DNA of 64,000 bases. It comes from Arboricoccus pini (GTDB taxonomy: Bacteria > Pseudomonadota > Alphaproteobacteria > Geminicoccales > Geminicoccaceae). This document shows, one piece after another, positions 41,988 to 49,450 of the stretch; the first letter of the stretch is position 1; each line of letters begins with the position of its first letter. A program made the position numbers and the translations under genes. The stretch spans positions 248,001 to 312,000 of the forward strand of contig NZ_FYEH01000005.1 of the NCBI RefSeq assembly GCF_900187945.1. The letters are read 5' to 3'. Below the pieces are notes generated by a model. It did no database searches and was not told the origin of the DNA. It worked only from the letters and a program-made list of their open reading frames with translations.

Positions 41988-42080
41988 GGACTGAGGAAGC
42001 CGCATGGCGCGTCATGTTGAGAGCGCGCTCCGGGGCGCCTAGACCCATTGTCTAGTCAATCACGAGCGACGGATCATGCA

Positions 42081-42680
42081 ATGGTAGGGCAGGATGTGCT
42101 CTTTGCCGCCCAGATTGTTGATCGACACGGGGGCCAGGCCTCCCTGGCTTTACGCTCGGGCAGTTGCCTAGCGATTACAGGTGCTTCCGGCAGCGGCAAA
42201 TCGACATTGCTGCGTCGGCTAGCCGATCTCGACCCTTATGAGGGCCAGATTCATCTGGCGGGGCGCGAGGCCCGGACCTACGCGCCGTGCAAATGGCGTT
42301 CGAGCGTGGTCTATTGTCCAGCCGAGCCTGCGTGGTGGGCAGAGACCGTGGCAGCACATTTCGTAGAATATCCGGGCGATCTGGCGGACCGGCTGGGGTT
42401 GTCGCCGGACTTGGCCGGGCGGACGGCGGAGCGATGCTCGACGGGTGAGCGACAGCGGCTTGCTCTGCTTCGCGCGTTGTCGCGTAAGCCGGCGGTCCTC
42501 CTTTTGGACGAGCCCACGGCGGCCCTCGATCCGGAGAGCACGGCTAAGGTCGAGGGCCTCCTGCGTGACAACCTGACAGCAGGCTTGGGGATCATCCTAG
42601 TGACACATGACAGCGCCTTGGCCGATCGCCTGGGTGACTGCAGGCTTGTCTTGACGGCAGCCGGGCTGCAGCCAGCGTGA
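42081..42680 (+). CDS. ABC transporter ATPase, FetA/YbbL-like
   Basis: 199 residues from ATG 42081; a TTG at 42048 in frame is less likely. Walker A is TGASGSGKSTLLRRL, the signature is STGERQRLALLRAL, Walker B is VLLLDEPTAALDP, and the switch His lies in LVTHDSALADRLGD. The short ATPase followed by an overlapping UPF0014 permease is the FetAB (YbbLM) arrangement, reported in Escherichia coli as an iron exporter that protects against oxidative stress. The stop overlaps the permease start (GTGA at 42677-42680). Confidence 0.83.
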   Translation: MVGQDVLFAAQIVDRHGGQASLALRSGSCLAITGASGSGKSTLLRRLADLDPYEGQIHLAGREARTYAPCKWRSSVVYCPAEPAWWAETVAAHFVEYPGDLADRLGLSPDLAGRTAERCSTGERQRLALLRALSRKPAVLLLDEPTAALDPESTAKVEGLLRDNLTAGLGIILVTHDSALADRLGDCRLVLTAAGLQPA

Positions 42681-43477
42681 CACCTATCTCGCTCACACCG
42701 TTCGATCTGGCCGCGGCTTCCCTCCTCATCGTCGTGGACGGACTGTTGTCGGTGGTGCTGGGCCTGGGGCTGCACAAGCAGATCGTCGTTGCCGCCAGCC
42801 GCATGGTCATTCAGCTCCTCCTGGTCGGTTACATTCTCAAGTCCGTCTTTGCCCTTGCGTCACCCGCCCTGACGCTGGCCGTGCTTGTCGTCATGGCCTT
42901 GAGCGCGGCACGCGAAGTGGCGGTCCGGCCGGAACGTCGCCTGAGCCGAGGTGGGAACCTGTTGATCGGCACGATCTCGGTGTTCGTCGCCACATCGCTG
43001 ACCAGCATGCTGGCTCTCCTCACCGCCATCCGTCCCGAGCCGATACTCGACGCGCGCTACGTCATTCCACTCACCGGGATCATCATGGGCAGTGTGCTTA
43101 ACGCTGCCAGCCTGTCCATGGACAGCCTGCTCGACGCTGCTGTTCAGAGGGCAGCCGCAATCGAGGCGCAGCTCTGCCTGGGGATCCGATTTAAGACGGC
43201 CATGGGTCCCCTTCTTCGCCAGGCCCTCCGGCGAGGCATGGTCCCAATCATCAATCAGATGGCGGCCGCTGGCCTCGTCACGCTTCCCGGGACCATGACC
43301 GGTCAGATTCTGGCCGGGCTGGATCCTGTTGAAGCCGTAAAATACCAGATCTTGCTGATGTTTTTGCTGGGTGGCAGCAGCGGCATCGCCGCGCTGGTGA
43401 CGACGTTGCTGACGATGCGCTGGCTCACTGACGACCGGGAACGCCTCCGTCTCGACCGACTGAAGTCGCATAAGTAA
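42677..43477 (+). CDS. ABC transporter permease, FetB/YbbM-like (UPF0014)
   Basis: 266 residues, GTG start within the GTGA overlap. About seven hydrophobic segments. Family-like segments include LGLGLHKQIVVAASRMVIQLLL near the start (first half conserved), PLTGIIMGSVLNAASLSMD in the middle, and GLVTLPGTMTGQILAGLDP, the motif of the UPF0014 family. It should form the membrane pore for the ATPase upstream. The next 213 bp to the aldehyde dehydrogenase hold no evident gene. Confidence 0.85.
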   Translation: MTPISLTPFDLAAASLLIVVDGLLSVVLGLGLHKQIVVAASRMVIQLLLVGYILKSVFALASPALTLAVLVVMALSAAREVAVRPERRLSRGGNLLIGTISVFVATSLTSMLALLTAIRPEPILDARYVIPLTGIIMGSVLNAASLSMDSLLDAAVQRAAAIEAQLCLGIRFKTAMGPLLRQALRRGMVPIINQMAAAGLVTLPGTMTGQILAGLDPVEAVKYQILLMFLLGGSSGIAALVTTLLTMRWLTDDRERLRLDRLKSHK

Positions 43478-43690
43478 GCCGCCGAGGTGCGAAGGTCGCC
43501 CGCGGCCCGTTTTCTGTGCTTGCCGACGGGCGGTGCAGCAGAAAGCCGGAATTCGCTGCGGCCAAGGTTACCGTAGCATGTCAGGCTCTAGCCCATATTG
43601 CCGGCCCGGGTGTATCAGCTTTGACGTCCCTACCGGCCAGCGGCCACGTCGCAGGTGACCGCACCACCCTCATTGTCCGGAGCCTTGCTC

Positions 43691-45130
43691 ATGTATGCCG
43701 ACGTTCTCTTGTTCATCGATGGCCAATGGACGAAGGCGGAGGCCGGCGAGACGCTACCTGTCCTCAACCCGGCCACGGGTGAGGAACTGGGACGCCTGGC
43801 CCATGCCAGGATCGCCGATCTGGACAAGGCATTGGTCTCGACGAGCCGCGGCTTTGAGGCGTGGCGACGGGTATCGGCGTATGAGCGCTCCAAGATATTG
43901 CGCAAGGCAGCTGATCTCATGCGCGAGCGAGCGAACGACATCGCCCGACTGATGACGCAAGAGCAGGGCAAGCCGTTCGCCGAGGCCAGGCTCGAGACGA
44001 TGGCCAGCGGCGACATCATTGACTGGTTCGCCGAGGAGGGCCGGCGTGCCTATGGTCGCGTGGTGCCCGCGCGGGCACCGGGGATTTATCAGCTCGTCGT
44101 CAAGGAGCCAGTCGGTCCTGTGGCGGCATTCACACCGTGGAATTTTCCCATCAGCCAGGCGGTCCGCAAGGCGGCCGCCGCGCTCGCGGCAGGTTGCTCC
44201 GTCATTCTGAAAGGTCCCGAGGAGGCGCCGGCATCCTGTGCCGCGCTGGTTCAGGCCTTTACCGATGCGGGCGTGCCGGCGGGCGTTCTCAACCTCGTTT
44301 TCGGGACGCCGGCGGAGATTTCGGGCTACCTGATCCCGCATCCGATCATCCGCAAGATTTCGTTCACGGGCAGCACTGCAGTTGGCAAAAAGCTGGCGGC
44401 GCTCGCTGGCGAGCATATGAAGCGCGTGACCATGGAGCTTGGGGGCCACGCACCCGCCATCGTCTTCGACGACGCGGATATCGATGCCGCCGTCTCGATC
44501 CTGGCCGCCAACAAGTTCCGCAACGCCGGCCAAGTGTGCATCGCACCGACCCGCTTTCTCATTCAAGAGAAGGTCTACGAGACTTTCGTCGACCGTTTCA
44601 CTCAGGCTGCTGAAGCGCTCAAGGTCGGCAATGGGCTAGTCGAGGGAACGACAATGGGACCGCTTGCCCATGCGCGCCGTGTCGATGCCGTGGAGGGCTT
44701 GGTCGAAGACGCACGCGGCAAAGGCGGCAAGGTTCGCACCGGCGGCCGGCGTATCGGCAATGAGGGATATTTTTATGCGCCGACCGTCATCACGGACGTG
44801 CCGCTGGATGCACGGGCGATGAACGAGGAGCCCTTCGGTCCCGTTGCCCTTATCCGGCCGTTCAAGGCGTTCGAAGACGCCGTGGAGGAGGCCAATCGGC
44901 TTCCTTATGGCCTCGCTGCCTATGCTTATACGCGCTCGGCCTCGATTGCGCAGGGGCTGGGTGCATCGATCGAGAGTGGCATGATATCCATTAACCACCA
45001 CGGCTTGGCCCTGCCGGAAAATCCGTTCGGCGGCGTCAAGGATTCGGGTTACGGCTCTGAGGGGGGCCTGGAAGCGATGGAGGCTTATCTTGCCACCAAG
45101 TTTGTGAGCCAGGCCAACGTATTGGGCTAG
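43691..45130 (+). CDS. NAD(P)-dependent succinate-semialdehyde-type dehydrogenase
   Basis: 479 residues from ATG 43691; the frame is open to a GTG at 43655. Aldehyde dehydrogenase superfamily: [19 protein letters not shown] for cofactor binding, [11 protein letters not shown], the general-base Glu in [16 protein letters not shown], and the catalytic Cys in [11 protein letters not shown]. The C-terminal [19 protein letters not shown] is typical of the GabD/SSADH branch. It would oxidise succinic or a similar semialdehyde. It is 21 bp upstream of the split nitrile hydratase-like genes and may belong to the same operon. Confidence 0.85.
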
Positions 45131-45151: not shown

Positions 45152-45469
45152 ATGGACGAGGATGGCAAGAGGCCGGCCCGCCACGATATGGGGGGCGTGA
45201 AGCAGTTCTACTGCGACGACATTGACCTGAGCGACCACGAATTGACCGATTTCGATAGGCAGGTCGACGCTCTTCGGCAGATCTTGGCCGTCAAAGGGTT
45301 ATTGACGGTCGATGAATTGCGGCGTGGCATCGAGGCATTGCCGGCCGATCAATACGATCGGCTTGGTTATTACCAACGGTGGATCCGGTCGATCGCCGTC
45401 ACGCTGATCCGGCGAGGGGTGATCAGTGAAGCGGAACTCGAGGAGCGCTTGAGGACGCAGGGCCCATGA
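45152..45469 (+). CDS. Nitrile hydratase family, beta-subunit N-terminal half as a separate small protein
   Basis: 105 residues. The HDMGG motif near the start, the helix ALRQILAVKGLLTVDELRR, the YYQRWIRSIAVTLI segment and the end RGVISEAELEERL match the N-terminal half of nitrile hydratase beta. The C-terminal SH3-like half is absent here and encoded by the next gene, overlapping by four bases (ATGA at 45466-45469). The activator protein of cobalt nitrile hydratases also resembles this half, so a chaperone role is an alternative, but HDMGG and YYxRW favour a true subunit. Confidence 0.75.
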   Translation: MDEDGKRPARHDMGGVKQFYCDDIDLSDHELTDFDRQVDALRQILAVKGLLTVDELRRGIEALPADQYDRLGYYQRWIRSIAVTLIRRGVISEAELEERLRTQGP

Positions 45470-45747
45470 CTCTAGACGTCGGCTCACGCGTTCGCGTCGA
45501 CGATCGCTGGCCGGAGAGGCAGGGACCCGCGCATATTCGCACCCCGCATTATCTTCGCGGGCGTAGGGGGAAGATCGTCCGCTATCTCGGCGAGTTCGCC
45601 GATCCGGAGCAACTGGCTTTCAACCGTCCTGCCCAGCGGCGCGCACTCTATCATGTGATGTTTGCCAGCGCCGATCTATGGGTGGATGCCGAGCCGGCCG
45701 ATATCCTGGTCGAGATCTTTGATCATTGGCTTGTCGAGGAGGCGTGA
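45466..45747 (+). CDS. Nitrile hydratase family, beta-subunit C-terminal half as a separate small protein
   Basis: 93 residues. It begins with the family segment GSRVRVDDRWPERQGPAHIR, then TPHYLRGRRGKIVRYLGEF, and later YHVMFASADLWVD and DILVEIFDHWL. This is the SH3-like barrel of nitrile hydratase beta, normally fused to the preceding half. ATG 45466 overlaps the previous stop; the stop TGA overlaps the next ATG by one base (TGATG). No frameshift that would rejoin the halves is evident: each has its own proper start and stop. Confidence 0.8.
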   Translation: MTLDVGSRVRVDDRWPERQGPAHIRTPHYLRGRRGKIVRYLGEFADPEQLAFNRPAQRRALYHVMFASADLWVDAEPADILVEIFDHWLVEEA

Positions 45748-46331
45748 TGCAGTCTTTCGAAGAGGAACGGCTGTTAACCGCTGTGGTCGAGCTCCTGGCG
45801 GAAAAGGGTCACGTCAGTGCAAGTGAGATCGCAGAGCGTATCGCGATCACCGACGAGGCCTCGCCGCGGCTTGGCGCACGGCTGGTTGCCAAGGCCTGGC
45901 TTGATCCGGCCTTTCGTCAATTGCTGCTGGCGGATGGATCGAAGGCTGCCGAATCGATCGGCATCATGATGCGCGGAGTGCCCCCCCTCGGCGTCCTCGA
46001 GAACACGTCGGACCTGCACCATCTGGTGGTCTGCACGCTCTGCTCCTGTTATCCGCGTGCCGTCCTGGGCTATCCGCCATTCTGGTTCAAATCCCCGGCT
46101 TACAGGGCGAGGGCGGTACGCGAGCCACGCGCCGTGCTCAAGAGTTGGGGAACAGCACTGCCGTCGACGACGCGTATCCGCGTTGTCGACAGCACGGCCG
46201 ACTATCGCTGGATGGTCCTTCCCGTCCGACCGGCGGGGACAGACGGGCTTAACGAGGACGCCTTGGCGGCGCTTGTAGACGAGGGCGATCTCATCGGCGT
46301 GACCATTCCCTCTTTCGACGTCGCGAATTAG
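45747..46331 (+). CDS. Nitrile hydratase family, alpha (metal-binding) subunit
   Basis: 194 residues from ATG 45747. The metal centre is VCTLCSCYPR, the Cys-Thr-Leu-Cys-Ser-Cys form associated with cobalt rather than iron; in known members two of the cysteines are oxidised. Following family segments are LGYPPFWFKSPAYRARAVRE, PRAVLKSWGT, IRVVDSTADYRWMVLPVRP and the C-terminal DLIGVTIP. It lies directly behind the two beta halves. The total of about 390 residues is small for the superfamily. The substrate could be a nitrile, thiocyanate or something else. Confidence 0.85.
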   Translation: MQSFEEERLLTAVVELLAEKGHVSASEIAERIAITDEASPRLGARLVAKAWLDPAFRQLLLADGSKAAESIGIMMRGVPPLGVLENTSDLHHLVVCTLCSCYPRAVLGYPPFWFKSPAYRARAVREPRAVLKSWGTALPSTTRIRVVDSTADYRWMVLPVRPAGTDGLNEDALAALVDEGDLIGVTIPSFDVAN

Positions 46332-47321: not shown

Positions 47322-48488
47322 ATGGGGCTAAGGCGCGTGACGGTTACGATCGAGTTGCTTGAACAACTCGTGGGCTTCGAGACGGTCAGCGGCAACTCCA
47401 ATCTCGACCTCGTCGAGTTCGTGGCCGGGCGGTTGCGCGCGGCTGGCGCGGAGTGCCGTGTCCTTCCCGACCCACAGGGGCAAAAGGCTAATCTCCTCGC
47501 TTGGATCGGGCCGACCGATAGGCCTGGGCTCGTTCTTTCCGGGCATAGCGACGTCGTTCCTGTCACCGGGCAGCGCTGGAGTGGCAATCCTTTCGCTCTT
47601 CGCCGGCAGGACGATCGCCTGATCGCGCGCGGCGCTGCCGACATGAAGGGCTTCGACGCGGCGGCGATCGCCCTCTTCGAGCGAATCGATCCCACATCAC
47701 TTCGCCATCCCCTTATCCTCGCGCTTTCATTCGACGAAGAGGTGGGCTGTAAAGGCGCCCCACCTCTTATCCACGCGCTTCTCGAAACGCTTCCAGCACC
47801 GCTTGGCTGCATTGTCGGTGAACCGACCATGATGGAGCCGGTCGATGGCCATAAGGGCAAAGTTGCCATGGCCGTTGAGATCAAGGGACGCGCCGGCCAT
47901 TCGGCCTTGCCCCACAAAGCCGCCAATGCGGTTTTTGCAGCCGCGCAGCTGATTGCCGCCCTCGCATCGCGGGCGGCCGAGCTCCAGGCGGAAGGACCCT
48001 TCGCCGCTGGCTTCGAACCGGCTTGGACCACCCTCAATGTCGGGCGCATCGAGGGCGGCTCACAGATCAATATCGTGCCGGATCGTTGCAGGTTCGAATT
48101 CGAGGTGCGGGCACTCCCCGGCACTGACCCGCGCGATGAGGTTGCCCGCGTGCAACGGTTAGTCAGTGAGCAGGTTCTTCCTGCGATGAGCGCCCAGGCC
48201 GAAGAGTGCGATATTCGGTTCACCGAACTCCTGCGCTATCCTGGTTTCCAGGCGCCTGAGCAGAGCATGATTGTGCGTACGGTCCGCGACCTGACCGGTG
48301 GCGACGAGCCCGCCAAGGTCTCTTATGGCACCGAGGCGGGACTTTTTGCGCAAAGTGGCATTGACGTCTGCGTCTGCGGGCCGGGAAGCATTGATGTCGC
48401 CCACAAGCCGGATGAGTGGATCACTGTCGGGCAGCTCGGGCGTTGCGATCACTTTCTCGACGAACTGGTCCAAAGGCTGTGCCGGTGA
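47322..48488 (+). CDS. argE: M20-family deacetylase, acetylornithine deacetylase (ArgE) type
   Basis: 388 residues; GTG at 47337 is another possible start. Zinc-ligand motifs LSGHSDVVPVTG and RGAADMKGFDAA, the FDEEVGCKGA pair of Glu residues, VGEPTMMEPVDGHKG, and the dimerisation domain with GRAGHSALPHKAANAV. The C-terminal CGPGSIDVAHKPDEWI provides the last metal-binding His. It should remove an acyl group from an N-acyl amino acid, probably N-acetylornithine. The stop overlaps the aspartoacylase-like start by four bases (GTGA at 48485-48488), so the two are coupled. Confidence 0.85.
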   Translation: MGLRRVTVTIELLEQLVGFETVSGNSNLDLVEFVAGRLRAAGAECRVLPDPQGQKANLLAWIGPTDRPGLVLSGHSDVVPVTGQRWSGNPFALRRQDDRLIARGAADMKGFDAAAIALFERIDPTSLRHPLILALSFDEEVGCKGAPPLIHALLETLPAPLGCIVGEPTMMEPVDGHKGKVAMAVEIKGRAGHSALPHKAANAVFAAAQLIAALASRAAELQAEGPFAAGFEPAWTTLNVGRIEGGSQINIVPDRCRFEFEVRALPGTDPRDEVARVQRLVSEQVLPAMSAQAEECDIRFTELLRYPGFQAPEQSMIVRTVRDLTGGDEPAKVSYGTEAGLFAQSGIDVCVCGPGSIDVAHKPDEWITVGQLGRCDHFLDELVQRLCR

Positions 48489-49450
48489 ATGTCGCCCCGC
48501 CGATCGAGCTCGCACCACCCGATCTGCGACCATGGCGGACCGGCAATACGGGTATTCCCCATGTATGGACATTCACCGGCGCGTTAGAGGGGCCGGATGT
48601 CGTGATCTTGTCCCTTCTTCACGGCAACGAGATTTCCGGTGCCCTTGCTTTGACCCGCATGCTCGAGGGTGGACTTCGCCCAAACGCAGGCAGTCTCTCG
48701 CTCATCTTTGCTAACGTGGCTGCATTTGAACGCTTCGATCCGGCGCGGCCGAGAAACTCACGGTTCGTTGATGAGGATATGAACAGGCTCTGGGATGATC
48801 GGCTATATCAACGGCCAGCATTGACATGTGAGCGTCGGCGAGCCCGCGAATTGTTGCCGATCCTCGAGCGTGCCGACTTCGTCCTGGACCTCCATTCCAT
48901 GTACTCAGGTACGGTGCCGCTCATGCTTTCTGGTTGGGGCGCTGCGGGTCGGGAACTCGCCGCGCGCGTGGGGGCCCCGTCCGTCGTCGTCGCTGATCGG
49001 GGCCATGAAGACGGCCGGCGTCTCATCGACTGGGCCAACTCGGCAGAAGGGGAGGGACGGCCGGCCGCTGTCCTCCTTGAGGCCGGGCAGCATTGGGCGC
49101 GATCGACCGCACGCACCGCTTTCGACATCTCGATCCGCTTTCTGCAAGTCGTGGGGTCGATCGACGATGAGAGTGCCGGGGCATTTTCGGGCAGCGTGCC
49201 GCCGGGGCAAAATCAGCGCCTTGTCGAGGTGACGGACGTCGTCACAGTGACCTCGACCGACTTTGCCTTCGTGCGCCCCTTTGGCGATTTGGAAGTTATC
49301 GACGAGTCGGGGACCGTCATCGCCCACGAGGCCGGTCGTATGATCCGGACGCCATACGATGCATGTGTGCTGGTTATGCCGACCAATCTGCCCCGCCCAG
49401 GGCTGACGGCAGTCCGTCTCGGCCGGTTCGTCTCGCTGCCCGTCTTTTAA
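48485..49450 (+). CDS. Succinylglutamate desuccinylase / aspartoacylase family protein
   Basis: 321 residues from GTG 48485; the frame is open to 48416 but inside argE. Zinc-ligand motif LLHGNEISGALALTRML with His and Glu, the FVDEDMNRLWDD segment, DLHSMYSG for the third ligand, and the catalytic Glu in AVLLEAGQHW. The C-terminal domain is beta-rich (VVTVTSTDFAFVRPFGD). Members deacylate N-acyl amino acids. The coupling to an ArgE-like enzyme suggests two steps or two specificities in N-acyl amino acid breakdown. It cannot be assigned to AstE: no ast genes are present. Confidence 0.82.
   Translation: MNVAPPIELAPPDLRPWRTGNTGIPHVWTFTGALEGPDVVILSLLHGNEISGALALTRMLEGGLRPNAGSLSLIFANVAAFERFDPARPRNSRFVDEDMNRLWDDRLYQRPALTCERRRARELLPILERADFVLDLHSMYSGTVPLMLSGWGAAGRELAARVGAPSVVVADRGHEDGRRLIDWANSAEGEGRPAAVLLEAGQHWARSTARTAFDISIRFLQVVGSIDDESAGAFSGSVPPGQNQRLVEVTDVVTVTSTDFAFVRPFGDLEVIDESGTVIAHEAGRMIRTPYDACVLVMPTNLPRPGLTAVRLGRFVSLPVF

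Follow-up and report, generated by a model that had tools for sequence, protein, structure and literature searches.

Three overlapping genes encoding an enzyme of the nitrile hydratase (NHase) family lie in the 64,000-nucleotide stretch of the Arboricoccus pini genome that we analysed (hereafter the window; Table 1). The first encodes the N-terminal half of an NHase beta subunit (beta_N), the second its C-terminal half (beta_C) and the third an alpha subunit, with overlaps of four bases (ATGA, 45466-45469) and of a single base (45747) between them; the number of genes, their positions, sizes and overlaps are all as the first-pass annotation had given them. The matches of the three chains to PF21006, PF02211 and PF02979 each exceed the Pfam gathering score, as expected of the NHase superfamily. 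Among PDB entries, alpha matches NHase alpha and thiocyanate hydrolase (ScNase) gamma chains, beta_N matches NHase beta chains, and beta_C matches residues 122-208 of 2ahj_B in a sequence search. Single-chain AF2 models built from alignments of the clade described below reached a pLDDT of 82 for alpha and 77 for beta_N. The alpha model matches NHase alpha and ScNase gamma at probability 1.0, the best match being the PtNHase W116R mutant 3vyh, while the beta_N model is helical and finds its closest PDB folds, with a weaker match, among NHase beta chains (best E 1.6e-3, probability 1.0). Recent foreign origin was rejected on base composition, since the GC content of the cassette (0.617) is not unusual against that of the window (0.594).

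Table 1. Features of the three-gene NHase cassette and the gene directly upstream, by position in the window.
Feature	Position	Strand	Evidence
Aldehyde dehydrogenase, ends 21 bases upstream of beta_N	43655-45130	+	Closest NCBIfam models of succinate-semialdehyde type, below cut-off
beta_N subunit, N-terminal half of NHase beta, 105 aa	45152-45469	+	PF21006 NHase_beta_N, E 4.4e-15
beta_N Arg57, equivalent of Fe-NHase beta Arg56	45320-45322	+	Alignment
beta_C subunit, C-terminal half of NHase beta, 93 aa	45466-45747	+	PF02211 NHase_beta_C, E 6.9e-16
beta_C Arg25, equivalent of Fe-NHase beta Arg141	45538-45540	+	Alignment with 2ahj_B
Alpha subunit, 194 aa, VCTLCSC-YPR	45747-46331	+	PF02979 NHase_alpha, E 4.2e-72
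Alpha metal site, Cys96-Thr-Leu-Cys99-Ser-Cys101 (CTLCSC)	46032-46049	+	Invariant in 81/81 clade alpha chains
Alpha Arg104, equivalent of ScNase gamma Arg136 and PtNHase alpha Trp116	46056-46058	+	Numbered alignment

Both the CxxCSC metal site and the two beta arginines that mark the superfamily are present in the cassette. Cys96, Cys99, Ser100 and Cys101 are unchanged in the aligned alpha chains of the clade, and the Thr of CTLCSC is the cobalt-type signature. NHase beta arginines 56 and 141 (Fe enzyme numbering) contact the oxidized cysteines. The position of the first, beta_N Arg57, is invariant across the clade (77/77), other split enzymes (23/23), fused enzymes (26/26) and ScNases (3/3), and that of the second, beta_C Arg25, is invariant in 79/79 clade members. 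Given this conservation of the metal ligands and both beta arginines, the enzyme is probably active.

The residue that follows CSC-YP, Arg104 in the window, is Arg in all 107 rows of split-type enzymes or ScNases and Trp, His or Phe in all 26 rows of fused NHases. The change between Arg and non-Arg occurs once on a 72-row alpha tree, which groups the fused non-Arg enzymes together at 100/99. Within the sets examined, Arg versus Trp at this position gives a clean division of the superfamily that coincides almost perfectly with subunit architecture; two plasmid-borne ScNases with a fused beta still keep Arg, so what the residue tracks is the branch and not the split as such. The CSC-YPR sequence, at first taken as distinguishing this enzyme, also occurs in ScNase (2dd4_C) and in all the split-beta enzymes that we examined. 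Mutants with the two residues swapped are available in the PDB (3vyg, ScNase R136W; 3vyh, PtNHase W116R).

Since beta is usually described as fused, a split one might reflect an artefact or a decaying gene. A pattern search of GTDB genomes with the alpha chain found 243 relatives, of which we retained the best 80 (65-77% identity). Among these best 80 of 243, the order beta_N, beta_C, alpha is kept as three genes at 77 loci, the other three being cut by contig ends, and it recurs at 29 of 30 sampled Arg-type alphaproteobacterial loci found by the CTLCSC-YPR DNA pattern alone (one is truncated). With the split and the conserved residues of both halves maintained in both sets, the artefact or decay reading, to which we give virtually no chance, is already refuted: the sequencing error that the first-pass annotation had kept in view, one whose correction fuses the two halves, was not found, and its description of a split-beta, cobalt-type NHase-family enzyme rather than a broken fused gene is borne out. 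The fused beta of classical two-subunit cobalt NHases is thus replaced in the window by two separate genes; at the Trp-type loci sampled, beta is fused and alpha comes first (10/10). In some loci alpha seemed to carry an additional, fused beta_N domain; this reading was rejected, as the N-terminus of alpha gave no more than a weak match. One locus (L086:1477-2430, minus strand) combines alpha and a beta_N match in a single open frame, and the stretch examined there contains no beta_C.

On the 72-row tree the window alpha falls in a long-stemmed clade (100/100, stem about 1.0) that is found in many acetic-acid-type and lichen-associated bacteria, includes Acetobacteraceae, Acidisoma, Acidiphilium, Lichenibacterium, Enterovirga, Methylorubrum and others and carries its own signature (MRGxPPLG, GYPPFW[FY]KS, VVDSTADYRWM). 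ScNase (2dd4_C and two scnC) forms a separate 100/100 group, so the phylogeny suggested as a check, here drawn without S. canus AnhA and ToyJ, places the window alpha outside ScNase. This clade is absent from the characterizations that we found in the literature. An activity like that of ScNase, in which thiocyanate (or a small anion such as cyanate) would be hydrolysed to carbonyl sulfide and ammonia, draws on the split beta and the Arg136 equivalent common to both enzymes, and on a constrained tree, with the whole clade joined to ScNase as its sister, that does as well as the unconstrained one (p-AU 0.50). We consider such an activity unlikely, however, because the clade is separate from ScNase at 100/100 and lacks the ScNase-specific QSP/HSP and Trp158 residues, because forcing the window alpha by itself into the ScNase group lowers the log-likelihood by 41 units (p-AU 0.041, a marginal rejection), and because the window alpha scores 175.7 bits against a TIGR03887 cut-off of 291.45 that a genuine scnC, the positive control, passes (356.8). 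Nor were sulfur or thiocyanate genes recognized near the cassette. Against the NHase alpha equivalog TIGR01323 (cut-off 249.85) the window alpha also falls short, at 221.1 bits, as do the beta halves (52.5 and 57.4 bits) against TIGR03888 (152.2), while the alpha of a three-piece homologue on a Streptomyces plasmid (L125, 55.6% identity), likewise on the Arg side of the tree, passes the alpha cut-off with 267.5 bits.

Directly upstream of the cassette, the aldehyde dehydrogenase gene is so close to beta_N that the two are possibly co-transcribed; we rejected it as a functional partner, the pairing being absent next to the cassette in relatives. Positions 42048-43477 hold an ABC ATPase and a UPF0014/FetB-type permease, a pair resembling an iron-efflux transporter at scores below equivalog cut-offs, and at 47322-49450 an acetylornithine deacetylase gene (above cut-off) precedes one resembling aspartoacylase/succinylglutamate desuccinylase, the overlap of the two frames depending on the choice of start. 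In agreement with the first-pass annotation, no antibiotic or thiocyanate genes were recognized among those identified around the cassette. No activator gene lies next to the cassette or in the region inspected. The initial remark that none was visible holds to this extent, but an accessory protein exceeding the TIGR03889 cut-off does exist in the same genome, at a second, classical NHase on contig C27 (71.1-72.8 kb; L001:692-2412) with a fused beta of 245 aa and an alpha carrying CTLCSCYPW. Matches to beta_N in the genome comprise the cassette itself and two at this second locus. A membrane-protein-like ORF, resembling CbtA by eye, follows the C27 locus.

In the relatives, a gamma-glutamyltransferase gene lies directly downstream of alpha, mostly overlapping it or nearly so, at 22 of the 73 loci with enough sequence (e.g. 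L058:8558-10390). This linkage, an additional Arg in the pocket region and the strong conservation of the alpha chain would all suit an enzyme of cyanide assimilation that hydrates a specific endogenous amino-acid-type nitrile (beta-cyanoalanine, for instance, or a gamma-cyano amino acid), with the transferase as its partner in some genomes. That role strikes us as quite improbable, because the linkage is limited to a few subclades (five changes on the tree, with 0/500 shuffles as low), a clustering that indicates one or a few origins, because the transferase looks exported (its N-terminus is signal-peptide-like by eye), and because it is absent from the window locus, three copies lying elsewhere in the genome. 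A second neighbour, queC, is found about 2.5-3.5 kb upstream at 20 of the 60 loci whose flanks are long enough, each time within a queC-MoeB-DsrE-SH3 block. We rejected a queuosine/preQ0 link because queC-MoeB-DsrE stands intact without NHase in 8 of the 18 genomes whose NHase is elsewhere, and the queC neighbourhood is therefore positional. Also set aside was a cluster of minus-strand ORFs, N-formylglutamate amidohydrolase by eye, which has no NCBIfam match and whose BLAST counts were inflated, probably by beta_N antisense. Cobalt-uptake-type genes (NixA or CbtA/B) beside Arg-branch plasmid cassettes in Streptomyces, Polymorphobacter, Microvirga and Rhizobium are consistent with the use of cobalt.

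A close parallel to the cassette has been described in Streptomyces canus CGMCC 13662, whose cobalt NHase was purified from anhD-anhE-anhA (Guo et al., 2020; PMC7329996). AnhD corresponds to the N-terminal part of beta and AnhE to its C-terminal part, the AnhD, AnhE and AnhA subunits are of 10.41, 11.35 and 21.33 kDa, the authors found no activator gene in the genome and inferred an AnhD2E2A2 assembly, AnhD is a metal and subunit-swapping chaperone, and the substrates assayed include acetamiprid, thiacloprid and BN (the paper's abbreviation) (PMC7329996). Likened by description, the two systems have their genes in the order beta_N, beta_C, alpha, lack an activator gene and are both of the cobalt type, and in each the subunits measure about 10, 11 and 21 kDa; they differ in organism and in that the S. 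canus enzyme has assayed substrates. The minimal three pieces and the absent activator, both flagged as unusual in the first-pass annotation, were thus already on record (PMC7329996). Its proposal of a new branch stands in so far as the clade is distinct, but not as a new kind of enzyme, a three-piece, activator-less cobalt NHase having been purified before; a special substrate, as it also proposed, is possible, but nothing that we found points to one. Judged from its sequence, the cassette is a real and probably active NHase of an already known three-subunit kind.

Other three-subunit members already known are ToyJKL and ScNase (PMC7329996, PMC12648386, PMC7193024). ToyJKL of Streptomyces rimosus, whose alpha chain is active on its own (as cited in PMC7329996), is set apart from the window cassette by genomic setting rather than by sequence, as it sits in an antibiotic cluster (PMC12648386). 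Among the genes identified around the cassette there are no deazapurine antibiotic genes of the ToyJKL kind, and the queC of the genome is on another contig. The ScNase of Thiobacillus thioparus (2dd4) has the split beta, CTLCSC-YPR with Arg136 and a homologous fold in common with the window, but differs in the separate 100/100 clade of its gamma chain and in its substrate, thiocyanate; its operon includes an activator (PMC7193024). It is encoded by three genes, unlike the plasmid-borne ScNases of Azospirillum and Roseomonas (L126:3024-4666 and L127:3017-4666), in which the ScNase beta and alpha subunits are fused (283 aa). Classical cobalt NHases (Pseudonocardia thermophila, 1ire; R. rhodochrous) share the fold, metal ligands and both beta arginines with the window, but have a fused beta, a separate activator and Trp in place of Arg after CSC-YP.

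We think it likely, taking these lines together, that the cassette encodes a cobalt NHase with a heterotrimeric protomer, of the split-beta Arg-type branch, that works like AnhD-AnhE-AnhA of S. canus. In such an enzyme beta_N and beta_C would jointly stand in for the fused beta within a putative (beta_N beta_C alpha)2 complex. By analogy with the family, Co(III) would be bound in alpha by Cys96, Cys99, Cys101 and backbone, with Cys99 oxidized to the sulfinate, Cys101 to the sulfenate, and the oxidized cysteines clamped by both beta arginines. If beta_N doubles as a maturation and subunit-swapping chaperone, a separate activator would not be needed. A nitrile at the cobalt would then be hydrated to the amide, and Arg104 in place of Trp may give a more polar, positive pocket suited to small polar or anionic nitriles. 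The most likely substrate is an organic nitrile, polar ones included, with thiocyanate ranked next and then cyano-amino acids. Three observations count against this best explanation: the long stem and private signature, which mean that the chemistry of the clade could have shifted; the alpha score below a cut-off that the Streptomyces plasmid homologue passes; and the failure to recognize an amidase or cobalt transporter among the adjacent genes examined.

Split-beta cassettes are not unusual but common in Alphaproteobacteria. Across 385 sampled genomes of this group, CTLCSC-YPR is present in 63 and CTLCSC-YPW in 72, and the Arg type is thus about as common as the Trp type. Hardly any members of the Arg side have been characterized, while the Trp side is the industrial one. 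Further afield, a plasmid of Planktothrix agardhii (L133:397-3582) carries a three-piece Arg-type NHase right after asnB (asparagine synthase) and near a glutathione S-transferase gene, a setting that could place this NHase in a natural-product or amide pathway. An NHase alpha homologue is present in 27 of the 31 genomes of the family to which the window genome belongs. The split-type members examined from that family do not join the clade of the window alpha, so the window genome has an Acetobacteraceae-type version instead, and no conserved functional neighbour was found in the family, where housekeeping contexts vary (e.g. L148, L149, L154 and L155).

The presence of an NHase in 27 of 31 family genomes hints at a standing physiological role, as near-universality within a family is unexpected for a pollutant-degrading enzyme. 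We see a modest chance that the split-beta enzymes of Arg type make up a half of the NHase superfamily set apart by function, one that serves a conserved physiological reaction, with a small polar or anionic nitrile as substrate, instead of pollutant breakdown, and that the window's clade has a dedicated substrate of its own. The Arg/Trp rule is useful for annotation, and the Arg side offers a pool of small, activator-free cobalt enzymes for testing.
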